IMG/VR virus record: IMGVR_UViG_3300022188_000002
Span: 1 to 44,180 of that record
Reading direction: 5' to 3' (one strand)
Length of the DNA stretch: 44,180 bases
DNA from: a virus
Below, in pieces: positions 2,999 through 44,180 of the stretch (position 1 is the stretch's first letter; the number at the start of each line of letters is the position of its first letter). The notes beneath the pieces were generated by a model that saw only the letters and a list, made by a program, of their open reading frames with translations, was not told the origin of the DNA and did no database searches. The position numbers and the translations under genes are program-made.

Positions 2999-5106
2999 AA
3001 TACAGTGAAAATGCCCAACAAGTCTATCAAAGGCTTTACTTGCGGGAGAGTGAGTCCATAGAAGACTGCCACTGGCGAATCGCTGGGGCACTGGCCAACT
3101 CAGACGACCAGGCCAGGCATTGGAAGTCGCTGCTCGACAGTCAGGCTGTCCGCCTCAACACTCCCTGCATGATAAATGCAGGGATAGACAATGGTGAGTG
3201 TTGGCATGCCTGCTTTATACTTGGCTTGGAAGACTCAATGGACTCAATCATAGAGATGTGGGAGACCGTAGCTCGCATCTACAAGGCAGGCGGAGGGGCT
3301 GGCATTCCTATTGGCAACCTCCGCCCTAGGGGGGCACCTATCGCTAGTGGCGGCTACGCCAGTGGGCCTCTCTCCTACCTATACGTCGTCCAGGCCATCG
3401 CAGATAGCGTTCGTAGTGGCGGTCGTAGCCGTAGGGCAGCCAACATAGCTACAATGCCCTATATGCATGCCGACATCTTCGACTTCATCAATTGTAAGGG
3501 CGACGGCTCACTGCAGGCCTTCAACCTCTCCGTCCTGGTGGACGACGACTTCTTCGTCAATCTGAGCGCCCACAAAGAACTGTGGGAGGCCATCTGCACT
3601 AAGGCTTGGGAGTGTGGCGACCCTGGCCTTCTCTTCTACGACACTGTCAATAAGACCAACTACGCTCCCTGGCTAGGCGAAATCAGGACGACGAACCCGT
3701 GTGGCGAAGTTGCAGGCCCTCCCTGGACGGTCTGCTGTCTTGGCCACATAAACCTTGTCAAATGCCTAAAATATGACAAGCATAGTGGAACACCCCAACT
3801 TGATTGGAATGCCCTACGAGCGCTAGTCCACGAACTCACCTATATGCTCAACGAAATGCTCAACAGGAGCCCTTACTCTAGTGAGCGCTTCGCCAAGGTG
3901 GCAAAGGCCACCAGGCCAATCGGCTTAGGCCTCATGGGCTTTGCTGACGTCCTCTACATCCTTGGCCTCCCTTATGACTCCCAAGAGGCCATTAACCTCT
4001 TCGGACGCATCTGCAGGACGCTCACTACGGAGGCCTGGAAGGCCTCTAATGAGTATGCAGAGACCTACGGGGTTGAGTGTGAAGTCCCTGACAATTGGAA
4101 GTCCTACTTCAAAGAACTGCAGGAATACTACCTAGGCAAGGGCCAGGCATTGTGGCCAGTCGCCAATGCCACTGTCACTTGCATCGCTCCAACAGGTAGC
4201 ACCGCTATCTCGGCCGACTGCTCCTATTCCTTCGAACCTCAATTTGCTCTTGTGTGGGAAAAGAAGCTATCCGACGGCTCTACAATGCATTTCACTAACC
4301 CATACTTCCTCGAGGCCGCTACGAGGAAGGGCATTCGTCTGACTGACAAGCAACTAGAACAAATAGCCTCTCACCAAGGCTCAATCCAATCCCTTGACTT
4401 CCCCGACTCTCTCAAACGTATCTTCAAATGCGCTCACGACATCCACTGGCGAGACCGCCTACGGATGCAAGCCAGTGGCCAACGCTGGATTACGCAATCT
4501 ATCTCATCAACCATCAATCTCCCACACACCATAGGCGTGGAAACCATAGGAGAAGTCTACAGGGAAGCATGGGAGCTAGGCCTCAAAGGCATTACTGTCT
4601 TTCGTGACGGCTGCCTCGACAGTCAGCCTGTCAACTTTGGGTCAGTCGAAGCTACATCCAAACAGAAGCGTCCACCAGTCCTTGAGGGCCGAACTCACAA
4701 GCTTCTCACAGGCGACGGCACTCTCTACCTAACCGTCAACAATCACGAGGGAAGACCCTTCGAAGTCTTCGTGACGATAGGCAAGGGAGGCCACAATGAG
4801 GCTGCAAATGCAGAGGCTATAGGACGCCTCGTCAGTTTGTGCCTCCGCTCTAATGTCCCTATGGAGTCAATCGTCAAGCAGTTGGAGGGCATAGGAGGCA
4901 ACACTCCTATCTTCCAGGAGGGTGGCCTCATCAAATCTCTCCCTGATGCAATTGCCAAGATACTTGGCGAGTATTGCGACGATGCTACGTTAAAAAATTT
5001 AACACAGCCAAAGGCTGTGTGCCCTCGCTGCGGCTCCCCTATGCGCCTCGACTCTGCATGTCGAGGAGGCACATGCGTGGCTTGTGGCTACAGCAAATGT
5101 GAGTAA
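2995..5106 (+). CDS. nrdJ: Adenosylcobalamin-dependent (class II) ribonucleotide reductase, 703 aa
   Basis: Makes deoxyribonucleotides from ribonucleotides for phage DNA synthesis. The class II signature is seen in the glycine-rich barrel segments (KAGGGAGIPIGNLRPRGAPI near residue 100, GRSRRAANIATM near 145), NPCGE near residue 233, and a C-terminal CPRCG...CVACGYSKC zinc/redox module. Length suits a single-chain B12-type enzyme, and no separate small subunit is encoded. It needs host or imported cobalamin. A dispersed palindrome (4989-5003) sits in frame in the linker before the Cys module, read as LKNLTQ. GGAGGAGG precedes the ATG. Confidence 0.92.
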   Translation: MKYSENAQQVYQRLYLRESESIEDCHWRIAGALANSDDQARHWKSLLDSQAVRLNTPCMINAGIDNGECWHACFILGLEDSMDSIIEMWETVARIYKAGGGAGIPIGNLRPRGAPIASGGYASGPLSYLYVVQAIADSVRSGGRSRRAANIATMPYMHADIFDFINCKGDGSLQAFNLSVLVDDDFFVNLSAHKELWEAICTKAWECGDPGLLFYDTVNKTNYAPWLGEIRTTNPCGEVAGPPWTVCCLGHINLVKCLKYDKHSGTPQLDWNALRALVHELTYMLNEMLNRSPYSSERFAKVAKATRPIGLGLMGFADVLYILGLPYDSQEAINLFGRICRTLTTEAWKASNEYAETYGVECEVPDNWKSYFKELQEYYLGKGQALWPVANATVTCIAPTGSTAISADCSYSFEPQFALVWEKKLSDGSTMHFTNPYFLEAATRKGIRLTDKQLEQIASHQGSIQSLDFPDSLKRIFKCAHDIHWRDRLRMQASGQRWITQSISSTINLPHTIGVETIGEVYREAWELGLKGITVFRDGCLDSQPVNFGSVEATSKQKRPPVLEGRTHKLLTGDGTLYLTVNNHEGRPFEVFVTIGKGGHNEAANAEAIGRLVSLCLRSNVPMESIVKQLEGIGGNTPIFQEGGLIKSLPDAIAKILGEYCDDATLKNLTQPKAVCPRCGSPMRLDSACRGGTCVACGYSKCE
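4989..5003. repeat. Dispersed palindrome, site 2 (inside RNR)
   Basis: GTTAAAAAATTTAAC with CTAC/ACAG flanks, in frame within the RNR gene and read as LKNLTQ in the linker before the C-terminal cysteine module. Confidence 0.9.
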
Positions 5107-6433: not shown

Positions 6434-6763
6434 ATGGAACTCGTAAAGGCCAAAAAAGGTGACAGAGTAGTAAGCGTAAACTACGATTTTGGCGAAAGCC
6501 TACAGGACGCCGTCTCAAAATTCGGTGAAGACGTAGTCTTCACAAAGTTCAAGCAGGCAGCCAGAATTGACCTACAGGCTGTCTTGCGTAGAGGAATTGA
6601 AGCAGGAAAAACCGACGAGGAAATTGCCCAGCTTGCTGGGCAGTGGAAGCCTGGCCTCGTCATGCGGACTTCAAAAGACCCAATAGAGGTGATAAAAGCC
6701 AAGTTGGCCATCTTGTCCGAAGAGGACAAACGCAAACTCATTCAGATGCTCAGGCAGAGCTAA
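6434..6763 (+). CDS. Hypothetical phage protein with WKPG motif, 109 aa
   Basis: Starts MELVKAKKGDRVVSVNYDFG with AAAGGAGG six bases before the ATG. A short beta-rich N terminus is followed by helices and the conserved-looking phrase IAQLAGQWKPG near residue 73, then a basic/helical tail. The layout recalls small DNA-binding accessory proteins seen in phage replication blocks, but I cannot assign a family. The 119-aa protein at 41406 has a similar plan (beta, helical, leucine-rich end) and may be distantly related. Confidence 0.6.
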   Translation: MELVKAKKGDRVVSVNYDFGESLQDAVSKFGEDVVFTKFKQAARIDLQAVLRRGIEAGKTDEEIAQLAGQWKPGLVMRTSKDPIEVIKAKLAILSEEDKRKLIQMLRQS

Positions 6764-7664: not shown

Positions 7665-7971
7665 AGAGACCAAAGTCTACGTCATTAACAGGAGCGGCCA
7701 CGACTACTCGTATGCCGAGAAGTTTGGCCAACTCGTCTACTTGTCCAAGGGAAGTATGGACAAATACAAGGTAAGCAAAATCGCTCGCTTGTTTGCTGAG
7801 CGATTAGCTGATAGCCAGCCAAACGACTATATCCTAGTCACTGGGCTGACGGTTATGAGCATGATAGCCGCAGCTATGTTCGCTCACAAGCACGGCCGTC
7901 TGAATCTCCTTATCCATAGACCCGACAACACTTACGTGGCCAGGGAGATTGTGCTTGACGGCCTATGTTAA
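7657..7971 (+). CDS. Hypothetical protein, 104 aa
   Basis: Begins MSRETKVYVINRSGHDYSYA; the ATG at 7657 has GGAGGG five bases upstream and overlaps the ligase stop. It shows an alpha/beta pattern with strands at VYVINR, YILVTG and LNLLIH. Several phages encode a small protein of this look beside their replication genes, but the function is unknown. Its stop codon TAA lies inside dispersed palindrome site 3. Confidence 0.65.
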   Translation: MSRETKVYVINRSGHDYSYAEKFGQLVYLSKGSMDKYKVSKIARLFAERLADSQPNDYILVTGLTVMSMIAAAMFAHKHGRLNLLIHRPDNTYVAREIVLDGLC

Positions 7972-7981
7972 ATTATTTAAC
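7967..7981. repeat. Dispersed palindrome, site 3
   Basis: GTTAAATTATTTAAC with CTAT/GAAG flanks. It contains the stop codon of the 104-aa gene and runs into GAAGGAGG, the ribosome binding site of the nuclease gene at 7996. Confidence 0.9.
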
Positions 7982-7995
7982 GAAGGAGGAACGAA

Positions 7996-10223: not shown

Positions 10224-10230
10224 ATTCTAT

Positions 10231-10245
10231 GTTAAAAAATTTAAC
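10231..10245. repeat. Dispersed palindrome, site 4
   Basis: GTTAAAAAATTTAAC with CTAT/AAAG flanks. The right flank forms the start of AAAGGGGG, the ribosome binding site of the 75-aa gene. Confidence 0.9.
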
Positions 10246-10257
10246 AAAGGGGGCATA

Positions 10258-10486: not shown

Positions 10487-11839
10487 ATGCTTAAAACCAT
10501 CCCTATCACACAAATAGTGTGCGAAGACCGTGTCCGCCAAGACTTAGGCGACATCCAGGAATTGGCCGCTTCTATTCGCCAGCACGGCCTTATCCAGCCG
10601 CTGGCTGTTGAGGCCTTGGAGGATGGCAGGTATAGGGTCGTAGCAGGCGGTCGTCGCTTCGAGGCGTGCAAACTCGCAGGGCTTACCGAAATCCCTTGCC
10701 GCATCTACGACTACCTTACTGAAGAGGAATACAAGGTTATTGAACTGGAGGAAAACCTGCAACGCAAATCCCTTACATGGCAAGAGGAAGTCCTTGCCAA
10801 AAAGCAAATCCACGACCTTCGCATGAAGATGCACGGTGCTAAAAAGCACCCTCTCGACACTGAAGGCTGGTCTATGACCTTAACGGCTGAGGAGATTGGC
10901 GAAACTAAGGCCAACCTCTCTTACGACCTCGAACTCGCTCGTGCTATGGAGGAGTTCCCTGACTTGGACTGGAACTCTTGTCAAACCAAAAGCGAGGCCA
11001 GGCGCAAACTCAAGCAATTCGAAGACCATATCATTCGTCAGGAGCTCGCTAAGCGAGCCGAGAGCGAAATCCCTCAACTCCAGACGGGCGACCGAGTGCT
11101 CGAAAAGAAAATCCTTGACTCCTACATATTGGCCGACTGTCTAGAGGCAATGAAAGGCCTACCCGACGAAACTTTCGACTTCTGCGAAGTCGACCCTCCT
11201 TACGGAATCGACCTGATGGAACTCAAAAAGACGTGCGACTACTCTTCCACATCCAAATATGCCAGAGGCTCCTACAACGAAGTCCGCAGTGACATCTACC
11301 CCGACTTCCTCCACCAAGCCCTCGAATTGTGCTACAAAAAGCTCCGCAATGACTCCTTCCTCATCCTCTGGTTCGCTCCCGAACCCTGGTTCGAAACCTG
11401 CTTCAATGTCCTTAGGGATGTTGGCTTCAAAGTAAATCGTATATGTGGCATTTGGGTAAAGGAAGGGTCAACAGGCCAGACTCGCAATCCAACCTACGTC
11501 CTCGGCAACGCTTACGAAATGTTCTTCATCGCTCGCAAGGGCGCTCCCAAGCTCCAGCGCCCTGGACGCTCTAACGTCTGGTATTACAAACCTGTTCCCA
11601 GCCAGCAGAAATTCCATCCTACCCAGCGCCCATACCACCTAATGCGAGACATCCTCGAGACCTTCTCTATGAAAGGTGCAAACGTCCTAGTGCCATTCGC
11701 TGGTAGCGGCATTACCCTTGCTACGGCCTGGCTTAATGACCGCAAGGCATTAGGCTACGACCTAGACCAAACCTACAAGGGAGGTTTCATCTCCCTCGTT
11801 CAACAACTACTGAAGGAGGTCAACAATGAGGGTAGTTAA
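10487..11839 (+). CDS. ParB-domain/HTH/DNA methyltransferase fusion, 450 aa
   Basis: Residues ~1-95 are a ParB/Srx-like domain (AGGRRFEA near 56, ELEENLQRKSLTW near 86). Residues ~118-160 look like the ParB helix-turn-helix (TLTAEEIGETKANLSYDLELARAM). Residues ~205-450 are an amino-methyltransferase with DPPYGID near 236 (catalytic) before FAGSG near 404 (AdoMet binding), the beta-class order, so N6-adenine or N4-cytosine methylation of DNA. It could guard phage DNA against restriction. With its HTH it is also the best candidate here to bind the dispersed palindromes, which is inference. AGGAGG precedes the ATG. Confidence 0.85.
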   Translation: MLKTIPITQIVCEDRVRQDLGDIQELAASIRQHGLIQPLAVEALEDGRYRVVAGGRRFEACKLAGLTEIPCRIYDYLTEEEYKVIELEENLQRKSLTWQEEVLAKKQIHDLRMKMHGAKKHPLDTEGWSMTLTAEEIGETKANLSYDLELARAMEEFPDLDWNSCQTKSEARRKLKQFEDHIIRQELAKRAESEIPQLQTGDRVLEKKILDSYILADCLEAMKGLPDETFDFCEVDPPYGIDLMELKKTCDYSSTSKYARGSYNEVRSDIYPDFLHQALELCYKKLRNDSFLILWFAPEPWFETCFNVLRDVGFKVNRICGIWVKEGSTGQTRNPTYVLGNAYEMFFIARKGAPKLQRPGRSNVWYYKPVPSQQKFHPTQRPYHLMRDILETFSMKGANVLVPFAGSGITLATAWLNDRKALGYDLDQTYKGGFISLVQQLLKEVNNEGS

Positions 11840-16638: not shown

Positions 16639-16963
16639 TTACCTGCACACTCTCATGTGCAACGAACCTCACTGTGATGACGTGATGGCCTATGCCAACG
16701 GCGAGTGCGATGGTTGTCCCTGGTATCTGGAGGAACTCATCACTGATTGTTGGGATAGAGAGGCACACAAAAAGTGGCTTGGCCAAGCCATCGACATACT
16801 CAAGTTACTGGACAAGGAAAGTCCCCAGGACGCTCTAACGACCTTCCTTAAAATAATGGAAGTCTTTAGAGCATTTTGTGGGCTTAGTCAACAGGAGCAA
16901 TTTGTTCTGAGGATGTTAATTAACGCTTCGTTAAAAAATTTAACGCAGAATAAGGAGGCCTAA
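16610..16963 (+). CDS. Small Cys-containing protein, 117 aa
   Basis: Begins MMEILQTIADYLHTLMCNEP. A CNEPHCDD...CDGCP set of cysteines (residues 17-40) suggests a metal site, a little like the Cys cluster of the paralogs at the join, though I cannot show homology. The C-terminal half is helical. The last residues SLKNLTQNKEA are encoded by dispersed palindrome site 5. It overlaps the DUF3987-like gene by 29 bases; a GGAGGG precedes the ATG pair at 16610/16613. Confidence 0.6.
   Translation: MMEILQTIADYLHTLMCNEPHCDDVMAYANGECDGCPWYLEELITDCWDREAHKKWLGQAIDILKLLDKESPQDALTTFLKIMEVFRAFCGLSQQEQFVLRMLINASLKNLTQNKEA
16930..16944. repeat. Dispersed palindrome, site 5
   Basis: GTTAAAAAATTTAAC with CTTC/GCAG flanks. 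It codes LKNLTQ at the C terminus of the 117-aa protein and lies 7 bases before the AAGGAGG of thyX. Confidence 0.9.
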
Positions 16964-17588: not shown

Positions 17589-17608
17589 TAGTGGGCTTCG
17601 GCCCACTA
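17589..17608. terminator. Bidirectional terminator between converging blocks
   Basis: TAGTGGGC-TTCG-GCCCACTA, an 8-bp perfect stem with a TTCG tetraloop, three bases after thyX and overlapping the stop of the minus-strand 1683-aa gene. Its position at the convergence point supports termination both ways, although the following T tract is weak. Confidence 0.65.
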
Positions 17609-20600
17609 CTTCCTAGGCCTCACATACATCCCTGCCAATTCCTCTCGTTTCCTAGCCATTGCCTCCAACACGCCCTCATACCTCTTAACTTCATTCTCCA
17701 ACTCAAAGTTTGACGTCCTGGGATCTTTAAGCATCTTATGGAGTTTCATCTTCTCTTTCTTTGCAAACCCACTGAGCTTGCCCATCTTCCGTATAAACTC
17801 CTGGTCTAGGTATACCCTATATGTCTTAAACCCGAACATGCCTAGCAATTCCTCAGGCAGGCTGTAAATGCCTCCAAAATAGTTTTTGCCTGTCCATCCC
17901 TGGCTCTCAGCAAACTCCTTAGGCAGCAGCCCTTGCGCTGCAAGAGCATTCCCTATCTTATCATACGACCACATACCAGGCACTGGAATATTGGGCATTA
18001 GCTGTTGTTGGATAAACTTCAGCCGCTCATCAAAATACCGCTTGAAATTACCAGTCGCTTTGGCCTCATCCCATGTTGTGGCAAATTCACGGTCAAAGCG
18101 AGGGTCACGGCCTGTCGTGATGCCATACACGATTGAGACCAATGGATTAAAGCCAAATGGGTAATTACCAAATATTCCACTAGGCGTCAATATATCAGCG
18201 CCTGGCAACAAATTGGCCACGTTGAGATATTTGGCATAATAGCCACCCTCATCCTTCCCGCTACCCACCCTAATAGCATTCGTCGGCCCTAGGCCATACA
18301 TCCTGTAGTTCAGGTAGTCAGGCCTCACCCTCTTCTCAAATGCTTTGCCATGCTCCTTCTCACTTCCATAAGACTCTGTAAACATAAGGTCGTCAATCAT
18401 CTGATAGAACAGGAGGATGCCAAGCAACCTATGCGGATGCTCCACTGCCGCCTTTGCTATCACTGGAGTGATTTTGTAGGCATAGGAGGCGAATGGCACT
18501 ATTCCCCAATCCCTCAAGAAGCGAACTCCTTTAGGGATGTCTCTGTAGTCAAAGAACAGTCTATTAGCCGCTTCAAGGGCATCTTCAATTGACTTACCCT
18601 TCTCTACCTCCTGTGCTATAACTCCCATTTTATAGACTTCATCGCCCAATTCATAGAGTCGCATAATTTTCCTAGCACCCCCCTTCCCAACCCTTGCGGG
18701 CAGCTCAAGATAAGTCCCTAGCATCTTAAACATACCCTTGAAGGAGGTAGCATCCTCTATCTTCTCAATCTCCCTCAAGAACGTATCAAGGTCAAGCTCA
18801 CCTCTCAGGATATTAGAGTCTAGCAAACCAGCATCGATTGCCTTCTGAAAGACGTCCGTCTTCCCTTTGATATGTTTAACCCCTTTGGCGATGACCTCGA
18901 TGGGATTACGCCCATCTATAACACACAAGTGAGCATTGGCCATGAAGTTGAAGACATGCGTCTTTGGATTAAATGCAGTGACTCCAACCTTCCAATAACG
19001 TAGGAACTTCATCCAACTCTTAACAAGCAAATTCCTCCTAAGCCTCCAGGCCTTCTCATCAGTCATTGTCTTCAGCAAGGCCATCACGTCAGGGTGGATG
19101 GCCTTACCACTGAGCTCTCCATACTTCTTGACTCCACTTCCAGGGATAAGTTCTACGTCAGGCACCAGCACCCAATCGTTAGGCACGATGCCCTCTTCCT
19201 TAAGTTTCAGCAATGCAGCCTCTGCATTCTTTGTCTTCCCTAAATCCACCACATACTCTGTGTTGAGGAGTCGCTTGAATGTGTTAGCTAGTGCCAAGTC
19301 ATTAGACACTTTCTTAGCAAACTCCACAAGCCTCGGCACCACCTCTACTACTTCGCCCAGCGAGTCTCGTTCGGCCGTAGTGAAGTCACGCCTCAACGTG
19401 ATATAGCCCTTGCCAACGTGGTCAATCTCCCACTCATGCTCCACAAGGCCATTTTTCTTGAGCATACTAACAACCGCCTCATTATCTTCATGCACAAATT
19501 GTCTGCCTTCGCCAGCCGTTGCCAGCGTGCTATAGACTTTCTTACCCTTCTTCACATCAAATCCAGCAAGCGTCTCATACTCAGGGCTATTGACCTTAAT
19601 CTTCTTCGTAAGCCCACGAGGCCTCAAATAGTCAGCCCCAATGCCCTTCCACAGCCTCCTAAGCTCCCAATCTCCCTTAAACTTCATTTTCACTCTGCCA
19701 TACCTCGAATAGACACGCATTAGATAGCGGTCATCCAACTTATTGAGATATTCCTCTAGAAACCCCACTGTCTTAAGCATCTCTCGCACGTCAGCAATGA
19801 GGCTCTTCACTTCCTCAGCTTGCTTAACGATTCTACCATCTACATTCTCAATGTCAAGTCTGCCTGTCCGCTCTATATATTCGGAAATAAGGCGTTGCTC
19901 TTCAGGCGTGAAACGTCTGTTGATATCTTTTGCAAACCTAGCTATACGTGCCCTCAAATGAACCCTCTGCCTCTCCATATCCAACTTCATCTTCCAAATA
20001 TCTTTGGGCAACCCTTCAGTCGGATGGAAAGCCTTTACGAAGTCGCTATTCTTAACAGCATCTAGATAGTCAACCAGCTTGGAGTCAAGCACCCCACTCT
20101 TTGCTATCGCTTTCTTAAAGGCGCTCATAAGGAGCTTGCGTATGCCCCTGGGATTAGTCGAATATAGCGAGAGCCATGCTCCATACTTGAGGTACTTCTC
20201 AGGATTCCAACTTACTCTCAGGCCACCAAGAAAGGGTAGTGGCACTCCCTCCTCCGAGTCAAACTCTATTCCTGTTGCAAGTGCAATTGCCTGTGGCCAC
20301 AGTCTTAGACGCACAGCTTTAGCTGCCATCTCCTCCCCAATAAAAGGACTCCCCATCCACTCATTGACAGTATCAAGGGACACCCTGTCAGCTACATCCA
20401 TTACGTCCATGTGCTCTGCCTCGTAGAGGTCTTGGTATTTAGTCCAAGCATTAGTCGACCGTGAGGGCATTACGAGAGGAAAGCTGTCCACTTGGCGTAG
20501 CTGCATTTCGTTGATTAGGTTGCCTAAGTCATTAACGTATTGCTTATACTTATCTCGTAGCTGCCCAATCCTCATCTCTTCAATATCTGCATCCCTTATA

Positions 20601-22657
20601 GCACGATAGTATTTAGGCCTTTCCGTCTCATGGAGCTCTTCGACAGGCTTCCCAGTATATGAATCAAGGGAGGTTTTGCCAACTGGCTTACGTCCATGCC
20701 CTTTAACAGACGCAGTATATTCACGCCGTAGGATTGCCCTCAATTTTGCTTCGCTCTCAGGGTCAGGTGCGAAGAGTTGGTTGATTCTATCAATGGCCAG
20801 TCTGAGGTCTTCCCACCCATAGTCCGAGCCATAGCCGTGATAGAGCTTAAGGGCTTCCATATGCACCTTATCAATGACCTTCTCAAGGTCAATAGGCACT
20901 TCCCCCGTCAGCAAATCTCCTAAGTGCACATCCTCTGTATCGATGAGCTGTCTAAGCAATTGACTTGCCAGCACATCCGACTCATCAAACTTACCAGTAA
21001 AGATTTTGTCAAAATCTTCCCTCGACACGAAGAGCCAATGCCTCTCAATATCGTCCGTCCTTGCCCCATACTCAAAGTTGGCAGGAGGCTCCACATGTCT
21101 AAAGAGACGACTAATGAATTGTTTGGCTAGAGGATGTGGCTCAATCCCCTCCCCCTTCAACTTCTCCAACATAGCCCTCATGACCTTATTAGCAGACTCC
21201 ATCGAACTAAGGAACGTGTCATCTCGCAGATGTCCAGTCATTACATATTCCCAGAACATATTGCTAAACAACTCAGTCGGACTGCGTAGCCATTTGTCTA
21301 CATTCTTTCCATAGAAATCGAGGGACTTTAGAAAGTCCCTACTATGGAAGGCACTGAGGCGTAACCAGTCTTTGGGTGAGTTATATTGGCTGAAGATAGT
21401 CTTCAAGAAGGCCGCCCTCTGCTTCCCTGTAAGCACATTATTCCAGGCCCAGTGCCCAAGCTCGTGGAGGAATACGTAAGGGTCTCTATTCCTTAGCCTA
21501 ACGATATTACGGAAGAAGTCGTAAAAGCCATCAGTGGACATTTTCCTACTAATAGTCAACTTAAAGTCAGGTGAACGTTTTAGGTTTTTCATTACGCTGA
21601 TAAGGACTTCCTTCTCTTTCTTACTCCTTGCCAGGCTCTCGGCATACTTCTCTATGTAGCCATCTGAGAGGTCGTATGAAGGGACTTTGATTTTCTCTTT
21701 GAGGCCCTCCAACTGCTCAATAGCCTTGATGTATTTATCAGCCTCCTCCTTAGGAATGCCACAAAGCAACTTCTCCTTATAAATATAATGCTCAGTCAGT
21801 CTTATTTCCCTTGGAGTGAATACATCAGGTGTAGTTGGCTTAACTTTGTATGCTTGCAAGGCTTCGTACACAAGAGGTTTGAGCTCCTCAGGAGGCTCAA
21901 TAAGGCCTTTAAGGACTTCTTTTGGAGGCTCTGGTCGTTTCTGTGTTAAATTTTTTAACGCAGGTTTTTCAACATCTACTTTAGCCTCAACCTTAGGCTT
22001 AGGGGCCTGCAACTTAGACGTAGGCACTTCCTTCGAAGGCTCTTCAAGCGACGGCCTCTTGACTATATCCTCCACTACCTCTTCAGACGCTTTGACACGT
22101 TCCGTCAGGTTTCTAAACCCACTAAAGGTTCGCACACTAGCGCCTATCATATCATCTATTCGCCTAGCTAGTCTATGCTCCGCCCCTAGGCCTATCCCAA
22201 CTGCCGTCCCAATCTCGGCCACATCTGCCCATGCCCCATAGCCAGCGTCCCTCAATGCCTCGCCCGTGAGCCCGCTAATAAAGCTCGTAGGAACGGACGC
22301 AAGACCGCTCGAGATAGCTGTTCTTAGCACCTGCTTTCCAAATCCCTCAATAGCTGTCTTAGCCAGTGTCCTTGCAGCCCCTAGCCCTCCAGTGGCAGCC
22401 GCCACTATAGTATCGGAAATAGGGTCAAAGGCCTGCTCTGCAGGCACATCTCTTGAGGCAAGCACTTCCGCCTCCACTCTATCGTATAGCTTCTGGTATA
22501 CATCTGGCCTAAGGACATCTCTAAGGGGTTGTAACGAGGCCGCTACCCCTCCCTTGACTTCGTCAGGGCTAGCCTTACGAAAGTCAATCCCTTGCTCCTG
22601 CATCCTCTTAATTGCATAATTAGAAAGCTTGTCATAAATGGCATTCAAATCGCTCAT
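17606..22657 (-). CDS. Large polyvalent/internal virion protein with metallopeptidase motif, 1683 aa
   Basis: Probably packaged and injected with the DNA. Residues ~45-165 hold hydrophobic Gly/Ala-rich stretches that could enter membranes. HELGHW near 397-402 is a zinc-metallopeptidase HExxH-type site. The region around 1380-1530 (DWGIVPFASYAYKITPVI and following) resembles the LPD38 domain of large polyvalent proteins. The C terminus is a helical, basic segment. A dispersed palindrome is read in frame as LKNLTQ near residue 235 in a proline-rich linker. It overlaps the preceding gene as ATGA and is the last gene of the late operon. Confidence 0.75.
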   Translation of the reverse strand: MSDLNAIYDKLSNYAIKRMQEQGIDFRKASPDEVKGGVAASLQPLRDVLRPDVYQKLYDRVEAEVLASRDVPAEQAFDPISDTIVAAATGGLGAARTLAKTAIEGFGKQVLRTAISSGLASVPTSFISGLTGEALRDAGYGAWADVAEIGTAVGIGLGAEHRLARRIDDMIGASVRTFSGFRNLTERVKASEEVVEDIVKRPSLEEPSKEVPTSKLQAPKPKVEAKVDVEKPALKNLTQKRPEPPKEVLKGLIEPPEELKPLVYEALQAYKVKPTTPDVFTPREIRLTEHYIYKEKLLCGIPKEEADKYIKAIEQLEGLKEKIKVPSYDLSDGYIEKYAESLARSKKEKEVLISVMKNLKRSPDFKLTISRKMSTDGFYDFFRNIVRLRNRDPYVFLHELGHWAWNNVLTGKQRAAFLKTIFSQYNSPKDWLRLSAFHSRDFLKSLDFYGKNVDKWLRSPTELFSNMFWEYVMTGHLRDDTFLSSMESANKVMRAMLEKLKGEGIEPHPLAKQFISRLFRHVEPPANFEYGARTDDIERHWLFVSREDFDKIFTGKFDESDVLASQLLRQLIDTEDVHLGDLLTGEVPIDLEKVIDKVHMEALKLYHGYGSDYGWEDLRLAIDRINQLFAPDPESEAKLRAILRREYTASVKGHGRKPVGKTSLDSYTGKPVEELHETERPKYYRAIRDADIEEMRIGQLRDKYKQYVNDLGNLINEMQLRQVDSFPLVMPSRSTNAWTKYQDLYEAEHMDVMDVADRVSLDTVNEWMGSPFIGEEMAAKAVRLRLWPQAIALATGIEFDSEEGVPLPFLGGLRVSWNPEKYLKYGAWLSLYSTNPRGIRKLLMSAFKKAIAKSGVLDSKLVDYLDAVKNSDFVKAFHPTEGLPKDIWKMKLDMERQRVHLRARIARFAKDINRRFTPEEQRLISEYIERTGRLDIENVDGRIVKQAEEVKSLIADVREMLKTVGFLEEYLNKLDDRYLMRVYSRYGRVKMKFKGDWELRRLWKGIGADYLRPRGLTKKIKVNSPEYETLAGFDVKKGKKVYSTLATAGEGRQFVHEDNEAVVSMLKKNGLVEHEWEIDHVGKGYITLRRDFTTAERDSLGEVVEVVPRLVEFAKKVSNDLALANTFKRLLNTEYVVDLGKTKNAEAALLKLKEEGIVPNDWVLVPDVELIPGSGVKKYGELSGKAIHPDVMALLKTMTDEKAWRLRRNLLVKSWMKFLRYWKVGVTAFNPKTHVFNFMANAHLCVIDGRNPIEVIAKGVKHIKGKTDVFQKAIDAGLLDSNILRGELDLDTFLREIEKIEDATSFKGMFKMLGTYLELPARVGKGGARKIMRLYELGDEVYKMGVIAQEVEKGKSIEDALEAANRLFFDYRDIPKGVRFLRDWGIVPFASYAYKITPVIAKAAVEHPHRLLGILLFYQMIDDLMFTESYGSEKEHGKAFEKRVRPDYLNYRMYGLGPTNAIRVGSGKDEGGYYAKYLNVANLLPGADILTPSGIFGNYPFGFNPLVSIVYGITTGRDPRFDREFATTWDEAKATGNFKRYFDERLKFIQQQLMPNIPVPGMWSYDKIGNALAAQGLLPKEFAESQGWTGKNYFGGIYSLPEELLGMFGFKTYRVYLDQEFIRKMGKLSGFAKKEKMKLHKMLKDPRTSNFELENEVKRYEGVLEAMARKREELAGMYVRPRK
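21945..21959. repeat. Dispersed palindrome, site 6 (inside 1683-aa gene)
   Basis: GTTAAATTTTTTAAC with CTGT/GCAG flanks. Read on the gene strand as LKNLTQ in a proline-rich linker near residue 235. Confidence 0.9.
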
Positions 22658-28385: not shown

Positions 28386-28400
28386 GGCTCGATTCCCTGT

Positions 28401-28415
28401 GTTAAAATTTTTAAC
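28401..28415. repeat. Dispersed palindrome, site 8
   Basis: GTTAAAATTTTTAAC with CTGT/ATAG flanks, between the capsid gene and the adaptor gene, 15 bases before the adaptor ATG on the minus strand. Confidence 0.9.
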
Positions 28416-28419
28416 ATAG

Positions 28420-31679: not shown

Positions 31680-33556
31680 TACATTACTCCTATAGGTCTC
31701 AAGTTGCCTTTCTCAGCCTCTCGCATGACTTGTTCATCAGGCATTACTTGGGGCTGGATTGAAGTTTTACGAACGAATGCCTCGACGTCCTTCGCTCCGA
31801 GTTCCCTCGCTATATGCTTTACGATGCGAACTATGTCAAATGTTCTATAGACCTCCTCATTTGATAGCAATACTTGTAGCAATTGTATCCAGGCTTGAGC
31901 AGATTGCTGGCCAGGGACATTGCCCTCTCTAGGGACAACGTCAAAGTCGACGTCTAGGTCCGTAGGACTTACTTTTACAAAGTCGCTTCCATATTCCTTG
32001 AGGAGGACGTCCTGCCAACGACCCGTTGCCCGCACATACGTTTCATTGCTCATCAATTCCTGCGTATGATACGCAAAAAAATAACCAATGTCAACCATTG
32101 CCTGCAAAGAGATTACATCGGACATACGTTTGAGACGGCCAAGAGCAGCTGCCCTCGTCCCCTGAAACTCCGTCCCAGTGAGGCGTTCAGGGCCACCCTT
32201 ACGAAGAGCTCCCATCATAGCCTCATCGACCCCACTGACGTAGTTCATCCATTGGACTATCCAACTCGTGTCTGTGATGTTGCTACGAGTAATGTCGTTT
32301 ACGACGAGTTGCATTACCCCATCCTTGACGCCCTTACCCCAAGCTGGCCTACGAGTCCTAATGAGTTTGCCAGGCTTTGGGTCTTTCAAATCACGCACGT
32401 TGATGAGGTAAGGGTCGACCACTAGCATGTCATTAATAGCTTTACGGACATTCTTTACGTGAGAGTTAAAGAGGAAGTCGACCGTAGTTTGGAGGCCATA
32501 CAATGTCTCGAGACGACTTAAGGGAGTTACGGAGTAGCCGTCGAAGTCAGGAGCACAGGCCGCTATAGGGAACATCCCATGCTTGAGGTTTAAAGGCTTA
32601 GCCATTATGACGACAGAGTCAGCCGCTACTGCAAACATCCATTTTTCAGGGTATTCGCTGTTGCCAAGCCCCCACTCTGAAGGCACAAGATTGACATACA
32701 TATAGATTACGTCGACTTGGTTTTGCTGTGTTAAATTATTTAACGCAGTGTCAATCTCCCTATCTCCGCTGACTATTGCGCTCCTTTTACTCGGTAATTG
32801 CTTTAGGTATCTTACGTTAAAGTAGTCTCCTTCCAATTCCTCCATCTCTAGTAATTTGTAATAGCTAATTGTATCTACCCAACCGAAGAAGTCTCCATCC
32901 TGCACATTGTGGATAGAGGTTGTTGGATCAGGGAGAGCCTTGTAAGGATCGATGTTCACTAGCTTGTTACCTTCGAAGAGAAGGTCAAACCCTTCCTCTT
33001 TCCCTTCTCTTTCAAGCCTACTCGTTACGAAATCTAAGATAGTGCTAGTGGAGGAACGTCCACGCTTTACGCCCCACCTCTGAGTCCATGTAGGGGCTAC
33101 GAACCCCACGCCGTAGGTCAAGGCATCACTCACCATTACATGCAAGGCGAGAGGGACTTTATTTTTAATGCAGTCGAGCTGCACCTTTTTCTCGAGAAGG
33201 ATTGCCCCTATAATGTCTTCAGGAGAGACGGGCTCATATTGAAAGATTGGGTCCTGCAGTAAGGCTGTTGTAATGTAAGTCAGCAAGGTTTCCTTTATGG
33301 CATACGTATAAGGGAAGACAATAGATACAGGCTTCGTAGGGTCTTCCTCCTTTAGCCGCTCTTCCTCCTCATCTAACGGGATATAGGCATTGAGAACACG
33401 GTCGATTTCTTGCCACGAAGCATAACGCTTGCTAATCTCATCCTTTGACATTTGAGCGTAGTCGAGCACACGGTCTACTATACGTTCATGTAACTCGTCG
33501 CCTGGCTTTAGTCCATCAAATGGATAGTCATAAGGAATTGTTTCTAAGAACTTCAT
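31679..33556 (-). CDS. Portal protein (head-tail connector), 625 aa
   Basis: Forms the dodecameric ring through which DNA enters and leaves the head. The plan is typical of podovirus portals: long N-terminal helical part (YAQMSKDEISKRYASWQEID), stem/crown region with LKHGMFPIAACAPDFDG and YGLQTTVDFLFNSHVKNVRK near 330-370, and a helical C terminus. A dispersed palindrome is read in frame as LNNLTQ near residue 273. TAGGAGG precedes the ATG. TerL, TerS and MCP in the same block support the call. Confidence 0.85.
   Translation of the reverse strand: MKFLETIPYDYPFDGLKPGDELHERIVDRVLDYAQMSKDEISKRYASWQEIDRVLNAYIPLDEEEERLKEEDPTKPVSIVFPYTYAIKETLLTYITTALLQDPIFQYEPVSPEDIIGAILLEKKVQLDCIKNKVPLALHVMVSDALTYGVGFVAPTWTQRWGVKRGRSSTSTILDFVTSRLEREGKEEGFDLLFEGNKLVNIDPYKALPDPTTSIHNVQDGDFFGWVDTISYYKLLEMEELEGDYFNVRYLKQLPSKRSAIVSGDREIDTALNNLTQQNQVDVIYMYVNLVPSEWGLGNSEYPEKWMFAVAADSVVIMAKPLNLKHGMFPIAACAPDFDGYSVTPLSRLETLYGLQTTVDFLFNSHVKNVRKAINDMLVVDPYLINVRDLKDPKPGKLIRTRRPAWGKGVKDGVMQLVVNDITRSNITDTSWIVQWMNYVSGVDEAMMGALRKGGPERLTGTEFQGTRAAALGRLKRMSDVISLQAMVDIGYFFAYHTQELMSNETYVRATGRWQDVLLKEYGSDFVKVSPTDLDVDFDVVPREGNVPGQQSAQAWIQLLQVLLSNEEVYRTFDIVRIVKHIARELGAKDVEAFVRKTSIQPQVMPDEQVMREAEKGNLRPIGVM
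32730..32744. repeat. Dispersed palindrome, site 9 (inside portal)
   Basis: GTTAAATTATTTAAC with CTGT/GCAG flanks, read in frame as LNNLTQ near portal residue 273. Confidence 0.9.
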
Positions 33557-40204: not shown

Positions 40205-40286
40205 GGCAATTGTTGAGGCAACCATAAAATTTTATAATTTGATGGATTGATAAATTGGTGGATATGAACATTACATCAAATGGCCG

Positions 40287-40389
40287 TCACACGCACGTAA
40301 TGGGTCAAATTTGGACGTTTGGACATTGGCCAATATAATTGGCCATGTCCAACGGAAAATGCGAAATTTGGCCGTTTACGTGCGTGTGA
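40287..40389. promoter_or_regulatory. Nested inverted repeat between divergent promoters
   Basis: Outer 14-bp perfect arms TCACACGCACGTAA (40287-40300) and TTACGTGCGTGTGA (40376-40389) surround an inner inverted repeat with arms of 16 and 15 bp (40319-40352) in which TTGGACATTGGCCAAT pairs with ATTGGCCATGTCCAA. It lies between the terS promoter and the 40431 promoter. Likely an operator or replication-control site. Confidence 0.6.
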
Positions 40390-40430
40390 AGGGCACGTGT
40401 TAATGATTTCAATGGGTTACAAATTTCCCA

Positions 40431-40459
40431 TTGACATTTCATTTGACATTTGATATATT
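40431..40459 (+). promoter_or_regulatory. Sigma70 promoter, rightward, at 40.4 kb
   Basis: TTGACA 40431-40436, a 17-base spacer, TATATT 40454-40459. A second TTGACA (40443) overlaps the spacer. It drives a non-coding leader of about 900 bases with a hairpin array before the 119-aa gene. Confidence 0.75.
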
Positions 40460-40465
40460 ATATCC

Positions 40466-41332
40466 GACCCTGGAGGGTGCTACCTTTAATTGTAACACGA
40501 AATGGCAATTCGTGCTACGGCCTGCCACCAGTTTGCAAATGCTATCGCATTTGCGACTGTAAGTCCAAAGGCTTTGCGAATGCTATGTTAAATTATTTAA
40601 CACAGTGGAAGTCACCTCAGCGGGTGCGTAGCACAAAATTGAAATTCGTAGCACGCCGCTTCATTGCCTTAACGATATTAGAGACGTTACCATCGCCTCT
40701 AACAACGTCAAGGTCATTGCCGCTTCGATGTTCGCCCCTTCGGCCTCACCTGCCGACTTCGTCGGCTCGACTAGCATCAGTGCCATCGACCGTTGTTTGT
40801 CAGCGTCAATGTCGCTTCGATGTGACGCTATGCGTGCGTTGACAAGGTTAGCGCCAACGCCAACGACGCTTCGAGGTGAATTACTAGCGTAATTCATCAG
40901 CTTGGTGTCAGCCTATTACCAGCGACAAATGGCCAACGAGGTTGGCCATTGCCAACCTAGAGGTGAATCGCCCTGTGATTCACCAGACAGGTGGCCACAA
41001 AAGTGGCCGTCACCAGCGATGCCAATCGTGAGGTGAATTGCAAGGCAATTCACCAGCACTATTGACCTGACCAATCGTGAGGTGAATTTGCCAAGTGGCA
41101 AATTCACCAGCAAGGCCACCGTCTTGGTTGCGGCCATCTGGAGGTGAATTGCCTCTGGCAATTCACCAGTTGGGCGACAAAAGTCGTCGCCAGTGGCTGT
41201 CGCCCGCAGAGTTGACCACATAGTGGCCGACGGCAATAGTGGTGGCCTCAGAAATTTGGGAAATTTTGTGAGAGTAGGACATTAATACGACTTTCGATTG
41301 CTATCCCCTTGCGGGGGCTGGTTCGCAGGACG
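40466..41332 (+). ncRNA. Structured non-coding leader with hairpin array 1
   Basis: No convincing gene is present. Five hairpins share the outer arms GAGGTGAAT / ATTCACCAG (last pair ATTCATCAG in the first), at 40873-40900, 40960-40986, 41030-41056, 41079-41110 and 41141-41169. Their inner stems and loops differ but stay complementary. A related but imperfect hairpin lies at 40989-41016. A reversed copy of the array-2 unit lies at 40720-40750. A leader RNA, an anti-termination element or a DNA control site are all possible. Confidence 0.6.
40587..40601. repeat. Dispersed palindrome, site 12
   Basis: GTTAAATTATTTAAC with CTAT/ACAG flanks in the non-coding leader, about 130 bases after the -10 of the 40.4-kb promoter. 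Confidence 0.9.
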
Positions 41333-41376
41333 AACCAAACCTTTCACCGTTGGTGAAAAGGTTTGGTTCTTTGTTT
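41333..41376 (+). terminator. Terminator or attenuator before the 119-aa gene
   Basis: A long stem AACCAAACC-TTTCACC (41333-41348) pairs with GGTGAA-AAGGTTTGGTT (one bulged A), with a 3-base loop, followed by CTTTGTTT. It looks like an intrinsic terminator between the long leader and its first gene, a possible attenuator. Confidence 0.6.
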
Positions 41377-41405
41377 AACGATAAGTCCTTGAAAGGAGGT
41401 TTGCT

Positions 41406-41765
41406 ATGAGTAAAAGGGAATTCGTAATGAAGGTCAGTGGTGGTAACCTTCCCAGAGGGAAGAGTTACCAGATTCCTTGCACGATGGACTTTACAGGGTG
41501 CACTAGGGACGAGCTCATCGATTGGGCACTTAGCGAGCGGCGAATTGCCGCTCAACGGTGGCTAAGGCTCCAATCAGAGGAATTTCTTGCAGAGTTACAG
41601 AAGAAAGGCCTGCGGTTGCATGCAAGGGACGCTGGTCGGCAATTGGCTGACCCGAATAAGAGGGTGCAGGAACTCAGGAAGCTTGGCCTGCCAGACGAGC
41701 TGGCCAGGCTTGTCGTTTCGAACCCTGAGAAGGTGCAGGAGTTGTTAGCGAAATTGACGAAGTAG
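41406..41765 (+). CDS. Hypothetical protein, 119 aa
   Basis: Begins MSKREFVMKVSGGNLPRGKS, then a strand YQIPCTMDF, then helices (WALSERRIAAQRWLRLQSEE) and a leucine-rich basic end (VQELLAKLTK). AAAGGAGG is seven bases before the ATG. It is the only gene in the control region, sits between an attenuator-like hairpin and a strong terminator, and so may be an early regulator that binds the nearby repeats. No family recognised; it may be distantly related to the 109-aa protein at 6434. Confidence 0.65.
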   Translation: MSKREFVMKVSGGNLPRGKSYQIPCTMDFTGCTRDELIDWALSERRIAAQRWLRLQSEEFLAELQKKGLRLHARDAGRQLADPNKRVQELRKLGLPDELARLVVSNPEKVQELLAKLTK

Positions 41766-41777
41766 GCAATGGCAGTG

Positions 41778-41806
41778 GGCTGGCCGAAAGGCCAGCCTTT
41801 CTTTTT
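41778..41806 (+). terminator. Intrinsic terminator after the 119-aa gene
   Basis: GGCTGGCC-GAAA-GGCCAGCC followed by TTTCTTTTT: GC-rich 8-bp stem, GNRA tetraloop and T tract, 12 bases after the stop codon. The clearest intrinsic terminator in the window. Confidence 0.9.
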
Positions 41807-42254
41807 GTCGGCCATTGTGGCGACAAGGTCGCCACAAAAGCGGTGGCCAGCCTACGGCTGGCATCAGGGCGTGCCTGCGGCACGCCAGGCACGCCAAGGC
41901 TGGCCTACGGCCTACGGGCTGCGGTCTTGCGAGCGAGGCTCGTAGCCAGGCTGTGGTCAGTGTCGCTGGCCAGATTGTTGGCCAGGCCTACGGCCAGCTT
42001 GGCCGTCCGTTGAACGGCCAAAGGATGGTCAGCGAAGCTGACAACGCCGAAGGCGTTGTCCTATGTTAAATTTTTTAACGCAGCGGCATGACCTATCGCA
42101 TGGCCTACCGCATGGCCTACGGCCATGCGAGCTTTGCTCGCCAGCTCGCATTGCCAAGGGCAATGCAAATGCCAATGGTGTAGGCCTCTCTATACTATAG
42201 AGAGCCTTGCCTACGACCAATGACATGCCTACGACATGCTAATGACGTGCCTTT
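41807..42254. other. Non-coding stretch dense in short inverted repeats
   Basis: No gene. Holds many perfect short inverted repeats, such as CTCTCTATA-C-TATAGAGAG (42086+100 region, 42186-42204), GCATGG/CCATGC and GGCGTGCC/GGCACGCC types, plus palindrome site 13. It resembles hairpin-rich decay rather than a coding region. Confidence 0.5.
42065..42079. repeat. Dispersed palindrome, site 13
   Basis: GTTAAATTTTTTAAC with CTAT/GCAG flanks, in the non-coding control region. Confidence 0.9.
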
Positions 42255-42279
42255 GTTAAATTGGCAACGCCAATTTAAC
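42255..42279. repeat. Expanded palindrome variant a
   Basis: A 25-base site: GTTAAATTGGC, three loop bases AAC, GCCAATTTAAC. It keeps GTTAAA and TTTAAC ends of the dispersed palindrome but has the centre lengthened to an 11-bp-arm stem. Left flank CTTT as in other sites. Confidence 0.75.
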
Positions 42280-42366
42280 AGCAAAATGGCCATTATGACT
42301 TCAATTCGCAGTCAATTCGCTCCAGTAATGCTTATAAGCTATGCCCAGCCTGCAATTGTTGCCTGT

Positions 42367-42381
42367 GTTAAAATTTTTAAC
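42367..42381. repeat. Dispersed palindrome, site 14
   Basis: GTTAAAATTTTTAAC with CTGT/ACAG flanks. This copy is a palindrome across the core and both flanks apart from the central base, so it is the best reference for the full site. Confidence 0.9.
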
Positions 42382-42421
42382 ACAGCAACGAGGCCCTTTG
42401 GCATGCCGTAGGCATGCCTTT

Positions 42422-42446
42422 GTTAAATTGGCGTCGCCAATTTGAC
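42422..42446. repeat. Expanded palindrome variant b
   Basis: GTTAAATTGGC, three loop bases GTC, GCCAATTTGAC: same expanded form as at 42255, with one mismatch and a different loop. It overlaps the first bases of the iteron copy at 42444. Confidence 0.75.
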
Positions 42447-42594
42447 TTCAAATTGAAGCCAAATTTGACCATTTTGACTGCGAATTGAAGCCATTTGGAC
42501 ACAATTGACTTCAAAATGCAGTCGGTTTGACGTGCGTTCGCACGTCAAACCATTGGAATCATTGAACAAAACCATTTTGCCTTCAAAATGCAGT

Positions 42595-42836
42595 GAAGTC
42601 TGTCTGGTCTCTTTCTCTCCATCCATCCATTTCATTTAACGCAGGCGGACTCCGTCCGCTAGTGTCCACCACTATCTTCTTTCTCTCTGCTGTAAAAAAA
42701 AAATGAAAGAAGAGAGAGAGAGAGAAAACTAGGAAGGAAGGCCAACAAAGTTGGCCAACAAAGTTGGCAAGCCAAAGGCTTTGCCTCTGCGTTAAATGAT
42801 TTAACGAAGGGAGGAGAGGGAGACCAGACAGACTTC
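42595..42836. repeat. 17-bp inverted repeat enclosing a purine/pyrimidine-rich centre
   Basis: GAAGTCTGTCTGGTCTC (42595-42611) is exactly complementary to GAGACCAGACAGACTTC (42820-42836). Between them are a CT-rich strand, a TCTTCTTTC / GAAAGAAGA stem with an A10 run, a (GA)n tract and palindrome site 15. The iterons to the left and right are mirrored about this centre, so it may be the unwinding element of an origin. Confidence 0.65.
42791..42805. repeat. Dispersed palindrome, site 15
   Basis: GTTAAATGATTTAAC with CTGC/GAAG flanks inside the 42.6-42.8 kb inverted-repeat element. Confidence 0.9.
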
Positions 42837-43014
42837 ATGGCAAATTGAAGTCGGAATGGTCATTCCCAATGATTTTAACGGTTTGTGTGCCGTTGGCACA
42901 CAAAATATGACTGCAAATTGAAGTCATTTGCGTGCGAATGCACGCAAATTGAAGTCATTTTGGTGCATTCGCACCAAAATAACCGCAAATTGAAGTCAAT
43001 TTGGTTCAACTCAC

Positions 43015-43043
43015 TTGACACAGCACCCGTTTTGTGGTATATT
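43015..43043 (+). promoter_or_regulatory. Sigma70 promoter P3 for the early operon
   Basis: TTGACA 43015-43020, a 17-base spacer, TATATT 43038-43043 preceded by GTGG as in P1. Directly follows the iteron array. The transcript has a leader of about 430 bases with hairpin array 2, then the Cys-rich paralogs and the whole early block across the join. Confidence 0.8.
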
Positions 43044-43056
43044 GGCCACAATGGCA

Positions 43057-43370
43057 GCCATGACTTCGTCATGGCCAAGACCGTTGACTGCGACATGGCC
43101 TTCAGCCATGTCGGGTGAGCTATAAGGCGAACATCTGAAGCGTCATGGCCAATGTCATGGCCAAAGGCCATGACTGGTGAGCCGCAAGGCGAACATCCAG
43201 ATTGGCCTTGCTAACTGCAAAGCCAAAGGCTTTGCTGGTGAGCCATAGGCGAACATCCGAATTGTCGTTGGCCTTGCCAACGAGGCTGGTGAGCCGCAGG
43301 CTCACCTCGAAGCGTCAGCGAAGCTGACAAGGCTACGGATGAGGCCACGGGCCTCTTCTCTAGAGAAGAG
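43057..43370 (+). ncRNA. Structured early leader with hairpin array 2
   Basis: Starts with a perfect hairpin GCCATGAC-TTC-GTCATGGC (43057-43075). Then come units of about 60 bases: a variable hairpin followed by GGTGAGC-YRYAA-GGCGAACATC (GGTGAGC at 43114, 43176, 43237; period 62 and 61). The fourth unit (43288) is a perfect GGTGAGCC-GCA-GGCTCACC stem ending in CTCGAAGCGTC. A perfect 18-base palindrome (43353-43370) ends the stretch. Within units, tandem G-A/G-A mismatches are kept in the stem. Confidence 0.6.
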
Positions 43371-43413
43371 ACTAAGGCCAATGTTTGGCAAATCGAAGGT
43401 TTGCCGACCCTTC

Positions 43414-43428
43414 GTTAAATAATTTAAC
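43414..43428. repeat. Dispersed palindrome, site 16
   Basis: GTTAAATAATTTAAC with CTTC/GCAG flanks, about 60 bases before the first early gene. Confidence 0.9.
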
Positions 43429-43488
43429 GCAGCGAGCCAGTGGCTCTTGCGAGCCTTTGGCTCGCAAAGGCCCGCAAAGGAGGACACT

Positions 43489-43964
43489 ATGACTAACCAA
43501 GAGAAGCTAATAGCCTTTATGTGGGAAAGGCCTACCTTATCGCTAAAGCATTAGGCAGGCCTTCCGAGCTCTACTTCAACGAAAAAGACGAAGAATACCT
43601 TCGTCAGCTAGACGATGAGCTAGCTTCGGCAGTCTGGCGCTCGATAAAGGCTGCAGTCAGTTGGGGCGAAAGAGGTTTATACGAAGGCACTTGTCCGTTT
43701 TGCCTAATAACTAAACACAAGTGCAACATATGTCCCTATGCCGAGCAGCACGGAGTATGTTCTCATCCAGACAGCCATTTTAAAAAGATTCGGGAAAGAG
43801 GCCTTGACTATCTATATGGGGCATCTGAGAACGTCCTGACGAATGAATTCTATAGGGAATTAGTTGAGAGGATAGAGTCATTAAGAATAAATGCTTTACT
43901 AGATAATTTAACACAACAGGTTGGCAGCTTACCACCAACTTCACCAAAGGAGGTATCAAAATGA
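43489..43964 (+). pseudogene. Cys/His-rich small protein, copy A, frameshifted near 5' end
   Basis: AAAGGAGG precedes ATG 43489, which opens MTNQEKLIAFM, closely matching copy B (MTSQEKLIRFM). Next to codon 11 the frame breaks: compared with copy B one base is missing (43519-43530 region), and the literal frame stops at 43552-43554. From GTG 43521 the next frame is intact and carries 147 residues with the C-x2-C-x6-C-x2-C-x8-C-x-H-x3-H cluster and an LDNLTQ read from a decayed palindrome at 43895-43914. Either a mutation, a base error, or use of the unusual GTG. Confidence 0.65.
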
Positions 43965-44180
43965 CTAGCCAAGAGAAGCTAATAAGATTTATGGAAGGAA
44001 AGGCTAGCCTCATCACTAAGGCAACAGGCAAGCCCTCCGAGCTTTACTTCAACAAGAAGGACGAAAAATACCTTCGTCAATTGGACAGCCAATTGGCCAG
44101 AGACATCTGGCTCTCAATTAAAGAGGCAATCCGTGAGGGCATGGAAGGCCTTCGTGAAGACCTCTGTCCATTCTGCCTAA
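43961..44180 (+). CDS. Cys/His-rich small protein, copy B (5' part)
   Basis: Start of the 139-residue protein that continues at position 1. ATG 43961 follows AAAGGAGG by seven bases and overlaps the copy A stop as ATGA. The first residues MTSQEKLIRFMEGKASLITK continue through PSELYFN, shared with copy A. It is the intact member of the tandem pair; the C-terminal cysteine cluster lies beyond the join. Confidence 0.8.
   Translation, partial: MTSQEKLIRFMEGKASLITKATGKPSELYFNKKDEKYLRQLDSQLARDIWLSIKEAIREGMEGLREDLCPFCL
44054..44180. repeat. Terminal direct repeat, right copy
   Basis: Exact repeat of bases 1-127; see the left copy. Removing it gives the 44,053-bp unit. Confidence 0.9.

Follow-up and report, generated by a model that had tools for sequence, protein, structure and literature searches.

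The control region of the environmental phage genome analysed here carries an array of five related hairpins of the form GA[GGTGAAT...ATTCACC]AG, lying on the + strand at 40873-41169 between a predicted promoter and a terminator-like hairpin. Our preferred reading, held tentatively and with a little less than even confidence, is that these hairpins form a lineage-specific leader array that likely acts before the terminator, and that the pairing of their tips has been helped by template switching. Within this model we infer transcription of the array, recognition of the hairpin bases, a role at the terminator and a share for template switching in array pairing. RNA initiated at the promoter (from ~40466 on) would carry the five hairpins, and their bases would be recognised by a protein or by RNA polymerase, most likely affecting how often transcription passes the 41332-41375 terminator and enters the gene at 41406. 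In replication, switching of the template from one arm to the other would perfect the arms and renew the loops.

The window, by which we mean the whole stretch of DNA analysed (IMG/VR virus record IMGVR_UViG_3300022188_000002, 44,180 bases, full length), encodes a tailed phage. Terminase, portal, capsid and tail proteins are specified by a - strand block. The + strand block encodes ribonucleotide reductase, ligase, exonuclease, a Sak4-like annealing protein and a ParB-methyltransferase, together with a family A DNA polymerase with a uracil-glycosylase domain, primase, dUTPase and ThyX. These two divergent blocks are separated by the control region (40.2-43.5 kb). The nearest named phage is Desulfofustis phage LS06-2018-MD01 (terminase 46%, capsid 47%), whose host was inferred via CRISPR spacers (PMC10370329); when genomes were searched with the capsid, the only matches were distant phages within metagenome bins. 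One relative alone was found to share the array region, a separate 8.5-kb contig (L005/L006) with 96% terminase identity to the window and 83% DNA identity across 3.2 kb; a search with a conserved 18-mer from the leader also matched three further contigs. Elsewhere in the window, 17606-22657 in the virion gene block encodes a 1683-aa protein with a HELGHWAW metalloprotease-like motif and no Pfam family. We considered this protein as an N4-type virion RNA polymerase using hairpin promoters, and rejected it on an E value of 0.25 and the HELGH metalloprotease-like motif. Two paralogues in tandem (ATGACTAACCAAGAGAAGC, ATGACTAGCCAAGAGAAGC) lie at 43491-44180, and a frameshift appears to interrupt the first shortly past its start.

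The elements that frame the array are as follows.
40431..40459, + strand: promoter-like site P1, TTGACA-17-TATATT with an extended -10, kept in L006
40466..41376, + strand: putative non-coding leader of ~0.9 kb, its transcript and start predicted from sequence
41332..41375, + strand: terminator-like hairpin with 13-bp arms and a T-rich tail, at the leader end
41406..41765, + strand: first ORF past the leader, 119 aa, no family

The initial annotation had placed the array in a long non-coding leader behind a strong promoter, and the predicted features agree with this. P1 agrees with the promoter consensus at 11 of 12 bases, its spacing is 17 nt and the TG is present; the leader looks non-coding because its indels relative to L006 break frame (of 20 indel runs, 14 have lengths not divisible by three). 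The distance from P1 to the first hairpin is ~410 nt. The terminator-like hairpin is kept in L006 with a matched one-base deletion in both arms, and a second terminator-like site is found at 41777-41798. Outside the window, the 119-aa ORF was found only in the L005/L006 relative, at 86% identity. The terminator's 5' arm is overlapped by a further small hairpin at 41320-41336 (GGTTCG/CGAACC), an arrangement resembling an attenuator. Across the whole window, Rfam 15 gave 0 matches at gathering score, and a permissive Rfam scan returned sub-threshold matches on hairpins only.

The five units of the array, with their copies in the relative, are given below.
40873..40900, + strand: H1, GA GGTGAATTAC TAGC GTAATTCATC AG; L006 copy at 4123-4150
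40960..40986, + strand: H2, GA GGTGAATCGC CCT GTGATTCACC AG; L006 copy at 4197-4223
41030..41056, + strand: H3, GA GGTGAATTGC AAG GCAATTCACC AG; L006 copy at 4257-4286
41079..41110, + strand: H4, GA GGTGAATTTGCCA AG TGGCAAATTCACC AG; L006 copy at 4308-4337
41141..41169, + strand: H5, GA GGTGAATTGCC TCT GGCAATTCACC AG; L006 copy at 4379-4404, degraded

All five hairpins are thus present where they had been described. The units are 27-32 nt each and are spread over 297 nt, with start-to-start spacings of 87, 70, 49 and 62 nt. Each combines a constant base, GA-GGTG...CACC-AG, with a tip that is free in sequence yet paired, and the unpaired GA and AG flanking the stems are mostly kept across copies. 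The statement that every core is self-complementary holds overall but needs two qualifications: the second pair of H1 is G-T because H1 ends in ATTCATCAG, and pairing of the H2 core (CGC CCT GTG) requires one G-T pair. The common left spacer reported for two of the hairpins was also recovered, CCAATCGTGAGGTGAATT being identical at 41022-41039 and 41071-41088. A CRISPR array was considered and set aside, since the spacing is uneven and the cores differ, in place of near-identical repeats and near-constant spacers.

The pattern GAGGTGAAT-N4-20-ATTCACCAG has 4 matches on the + strand of the window and 0 when read backward. L006 carries the same five hairpins in the same order, plus a sixth member of the family, GGTGACGC ACT GCGTCACC. 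When viral contigs were searched with the hairpin pattern, this relative supplied the sole true hairpin, the other eight matches not being hairpins, and a stricter pattern had no match in 84,980 bacterial and archaeal genomes. A covariance model was built from twelve copies in the two phages, including a - strand copy behind a second promoter-like site, P2. Applied to 38 sources of the phage family, it gave one match beyond the array copies, namely the one on the opposite strand behind P2.

Comparison with L006 indicates that the hairpins are more constrained than their surroundings. Arms differ at 10% of sites and spacers at 33% with a further 85 gap columns, so that arms and flanking bases diverge less than spacers (Fisher p about 1e-5), an estimate partly owed to the alignment being anchored on the arms. 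Among the twelve copies from the two phages, two-sided changes occur in 5 of 10 pairs, and 98.3% of cells pair against 89.0% after shuffling, a value that exceeds every shuffle. Pairing therefore covaries, as the initial annotation had anticipated, across paralogous copies and one relative; because that relative alone carries the array, the covariation rests on paralogous copies sharing descent. The non-Watson-Crick pairs of the array, read on the + strand, comprise 7 G-U against 1 A-C (one-sided p 0.035; p 0.021 against other hairpins), a lean that involves eight pairs in all, three of them within the decaying H5 of L006. H4 carries one extra base per arm and has a longer stem than its L006 copy. 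Taken together, arm conservation, covariation and the G-U lean make it probable that the array is an element of a leader RNA and has been conserved as such. The earlier proposal that matched changes reflect either a selected fold or a copying process that keeps complementarity is upheld as regards covariation and arm conservation, but these changes do not require selection on RNA.

The need for this qualification becomes clear when the array is viewed against the rest of the genome. Defining perfect hairpins by arms of 7 or more and loops of 2-8, we found 121 in the window, with arms of 7-13 bp and loops mostly of 3 nt. The segment at 40225-41405 holds 12 of them (10.2 per kb, 0.6 expected), and the two parts of the control region reach 10 and 22 per kb, against less than 1 per kb in shuffles. 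The excess extends across 41.8-43.5 kb and into the early genes, where synonymous codon shuffling predicts 8.0 (sd 2.2) and 37 are observed; the late genes have 19 against 9.1 by the same procedure. At 1039-1920, nine perfect hairpins lie within genes, compared with 1.1 after codon shuffling. Three-base loops predominate in coding and non-coding DNA alike. Nearly all other loci of the phage family are free of this excess, and it is smaller in a 4.4-kb piece of the Desulfofustis phage control region, where 7 hairpins stand against 0.7 and most loops are longer. The leader folds as well on one strand as on the other (-374.8 kcal/mol, z -11.1 against shuffles, for the + strand; -389.4 kcal/mol, z -12.3, for the - strand). 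Hairpins outside the array show no preference for G-U: control-region stems with a single mismatch have six A-C and one or two G-U, and one-sided changes in coding-region hairpins are balanced in comparisons with L111 and L101 (7:6 and 9:7).

Two footprints of template switching were found in this lineage, both outside the array.
11175..11193, + strand: footprint 1, in the ParB-methyltransferase gene; a 13-nt match that explains 4 differences
42439..42465, + strand: footprint 2, in the control region; a 13-nt match that explains 5 differences, including a gap

At the first, the window reads TCGACTTC TGC GAAGTCGA and the relative TCGACTTC GCA GAGGTCGA, so that a 13-nt stretch of the window, in its right arm and loop, reverse-complements the left arm and loop of the relative. 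The inverted loop at 11183 (TGC against the relative's GCA) is the one clear case of its kind. At the second, the right arm contains TTGAAGCCAAATT, which is the left arm of the relative in reverse complement. In both cases we assumed, from the match itself and not from an outgroup, which of the two phages has the derived state. Matches of at least 12 nt that account for at least 3 differences occur in 2 of 524 difference clusters in this lineage and in 0 of 16,734 in other phages (p 0.0009). A strict first search returned zero, the two strong cases coming from relaxed searches, and reversed and complement-only controls each gave one match at 12 nt in this lineage, both of low complexity. An 11-nt complement-only match at 6551 was taken as coincidence. 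Published work describes new stems, compensatory changes or fixed pairing, and loop inversion as products of template switching (PMC8794818, PMC8604942). The in-gene excess, the equal folding of the two strands, the absence of a G-U preference outside the array and the two footprints together favour arm-copying at the DNA level, at least in part. The array itself bears no such footprint, and a single switch could explain the extra base in each arm of H4.

This raises the question of whether mutation alone would suffice, with the array, like the phage's other hairpins, a functionless by-product of replication in which templates switch often and short stretches are duplicated locally, its pairing being kept by copying. 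Such an account draws on the genome-wide excess of mostly three-base-loop hairpins in coding and non-coding DNA, on its near-absence from other loci of the family, on the lack of a G-U excess in stems outside the array, and on the footprints with their TGC/GCA loop inversion between relatives. It is hard to reconcile with array arms that diverge ~3x less than their spacers, with the flanking GA and AG mostly kept, and with a five-hairpin order preserved in L006, as a neutral process is not expected to spare one motif. We regard it as possible, though on the unlikely side. A combined scheme, in which frequent template switching seeds and perfects hairpins in the early genome and one family was multiplied and co-opted as a leader-RNA control array, seems to us slightly more doubtful still.

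Downstream of the leader and its first gene, the control region contains a second promoter-like site and further members of the hairpin family.
43015-43043: P2 promoter-like site, TTGACA-17-TATATT, near-identical to P1
43110..43257, - strand: three imperfect family-like units behind P2, GATGTTCGCC...GCTCACC
43286..43308, - strand: hairpin-family member GA GGTGAGCC TGC GGCTCACC AG, scoring 28.9 bits and itself among the model's source sequences

A hairpin array thus follows P2 as well as P1. In the P2 array the family members are oppositely oriented, which does not fit one RNA signal shared by P1 and P2. Read on the + strand, 43110-43308 presents GGTGAGCC(N3-4)GGCGAAC with a tandem G-A mismatch, and in L006 the P2 array shows a double change, GCC/GGC to GTC/GAC. 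A tandem-GA kink-turn was considered for these units and dropped, since it would need the bulge on the other side of the G-A pairs. Between the two arrays, 42270-43003 consists of repeated GACTKCAAATTGAAGTC units with poly-A and GA-rich tracts and a 17-bp long-range inverted repeat (42595-42611 with 42820-42836). This block is largely conserved in L006, much of it nearly unchanged, and we regard this 42.27-43.0 kb stretch as a putative replication origin.

The proximity of such a region allows a different reading, that the hairpins are DNA sites, extruded or single-stranded near the origin, to which a protein of replication or packaging binds. The conserved origin-like region is 1-2 kb from the array and has family members in both orientations around it, and loops of 2-4 nt suit DNA hairpins. 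The array is, however, outside the conserved origin block, and its G-U lean points to RNA. A dimer bound at fixed spacing on duplex DNA is excluded because the distance between half-sites varies from 9 to 14 nt among the array hairpins. We consider DNA sites improbable, and continue to prefer a leader array acting ahead of the terminator.

The window also contains a dispersed palindrome, CTNYGTTAAAWNWTTTAACRNAG, in 14 exact copies against 0 expected.
Copies 1-7: 2326-2348, 4985-5007, 7963-7985, 10227-10249, 16926-16948, 21941-21963, 23823-23845
Copies 8-14: 28397-28419, 32726-32748, 40583-40605, 42061-42083, 42363-42385, 42787-42809, 43410-43432

Several copies lie immediately upstream of start codons. 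Some have counterparts at the corresponding place in L111, L101 and L006; 3 copies occur in L041, a distant relative. The palindrome is probably an operator of the phage and resembles stoperators.

Compensatory changes in stems are usually read as proof of a selected RNA fold. Under the arm-to-arm template switching proposed here, matched changes can arise together and need not wait for selection. In this phage similar hairpins also occur in coding DNA, there is no strand preference, and footprints of arm-copying are present, all of which counsels caution in relying on covariation alone. The phage also offers a compact setting in which to measure template switching, the birth of hairpins and their possible takeover by regulation.

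Several known systems invite comparison with the array. Bacterial REP and BIME elements are short palindromes with constant parts that occur in both orientations, and mobile palindromic repeats of a REP- or MITE-like kind, multiplied within the phage, would likewise yield the constant ends and the two orientations seen here. The phage family differs in forming two clusters and not being widely dispersed, with copies lacking from the rest of the genome and from the other phages examined and no REP transposase among the genes examined, and L006 has its copies at the same places. We therefore rate mobile repeats as the least credible of the explanations considered.

In phage lambda, nut (boxA/boxB) places a small hairpin in the early leader before a terminator. 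Small hairpins stand in a leader ahead of a terminator here too, but it is the stem base, and not the loop, that is constant, there are five copies per leader, and neither an N-like protein nor a boxA was identified. The initial annotation had likened the array to λ-type put or other leader RNAs, and the likeness to put was not borne out by architecture: put of HK022, which sits behind an early promoter ahead of terminators and suppresses termination with no protein factor, is a single ~70-nt RNA with two bulged stem-loops (PMC9378689), whereas the array consists of five separate simple hairpins with starts 49-87 nt apart. A put-like RNA with a direct modifying action on RNA polymerase, in the manner of HK022, would nonetheless suit the succession of promoter, hairpins, terminator and + strand gene, the presence of an array behind P2 as well, and the position of the hairpins between predicted promoter P1 and the terminator-like hairpin with no known protein partner. 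The separate, simple form of the hairpins, the first of them so far past P1, and the lack of Rfam matches at gathering score weigh against it, and we think it very improbable. By the features compared, the array is not a member of the put class, and it may be somewhat nut- or put-like in action.

Perfect inverted repeats inside genes, across a whole lineage, are also known from the mitochondria of Nematomorpha, where they reach up to 284 bp (PMC6649704); the phage hairpins share this lineage-wide character but have arms of only 7-13 bp. A parallel for the mutational side of our model is quasipalindrome correction, in which one arm is replaced by a reverse-complement copy of the other, loops are inverted, and perfect stems arise in coding and non-coding DNA (PMC8794818, PMC8604942). 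Those are described as occasional events, whereas the present phage has accumulated ~120 perfect hairpins together with a paralogous array.
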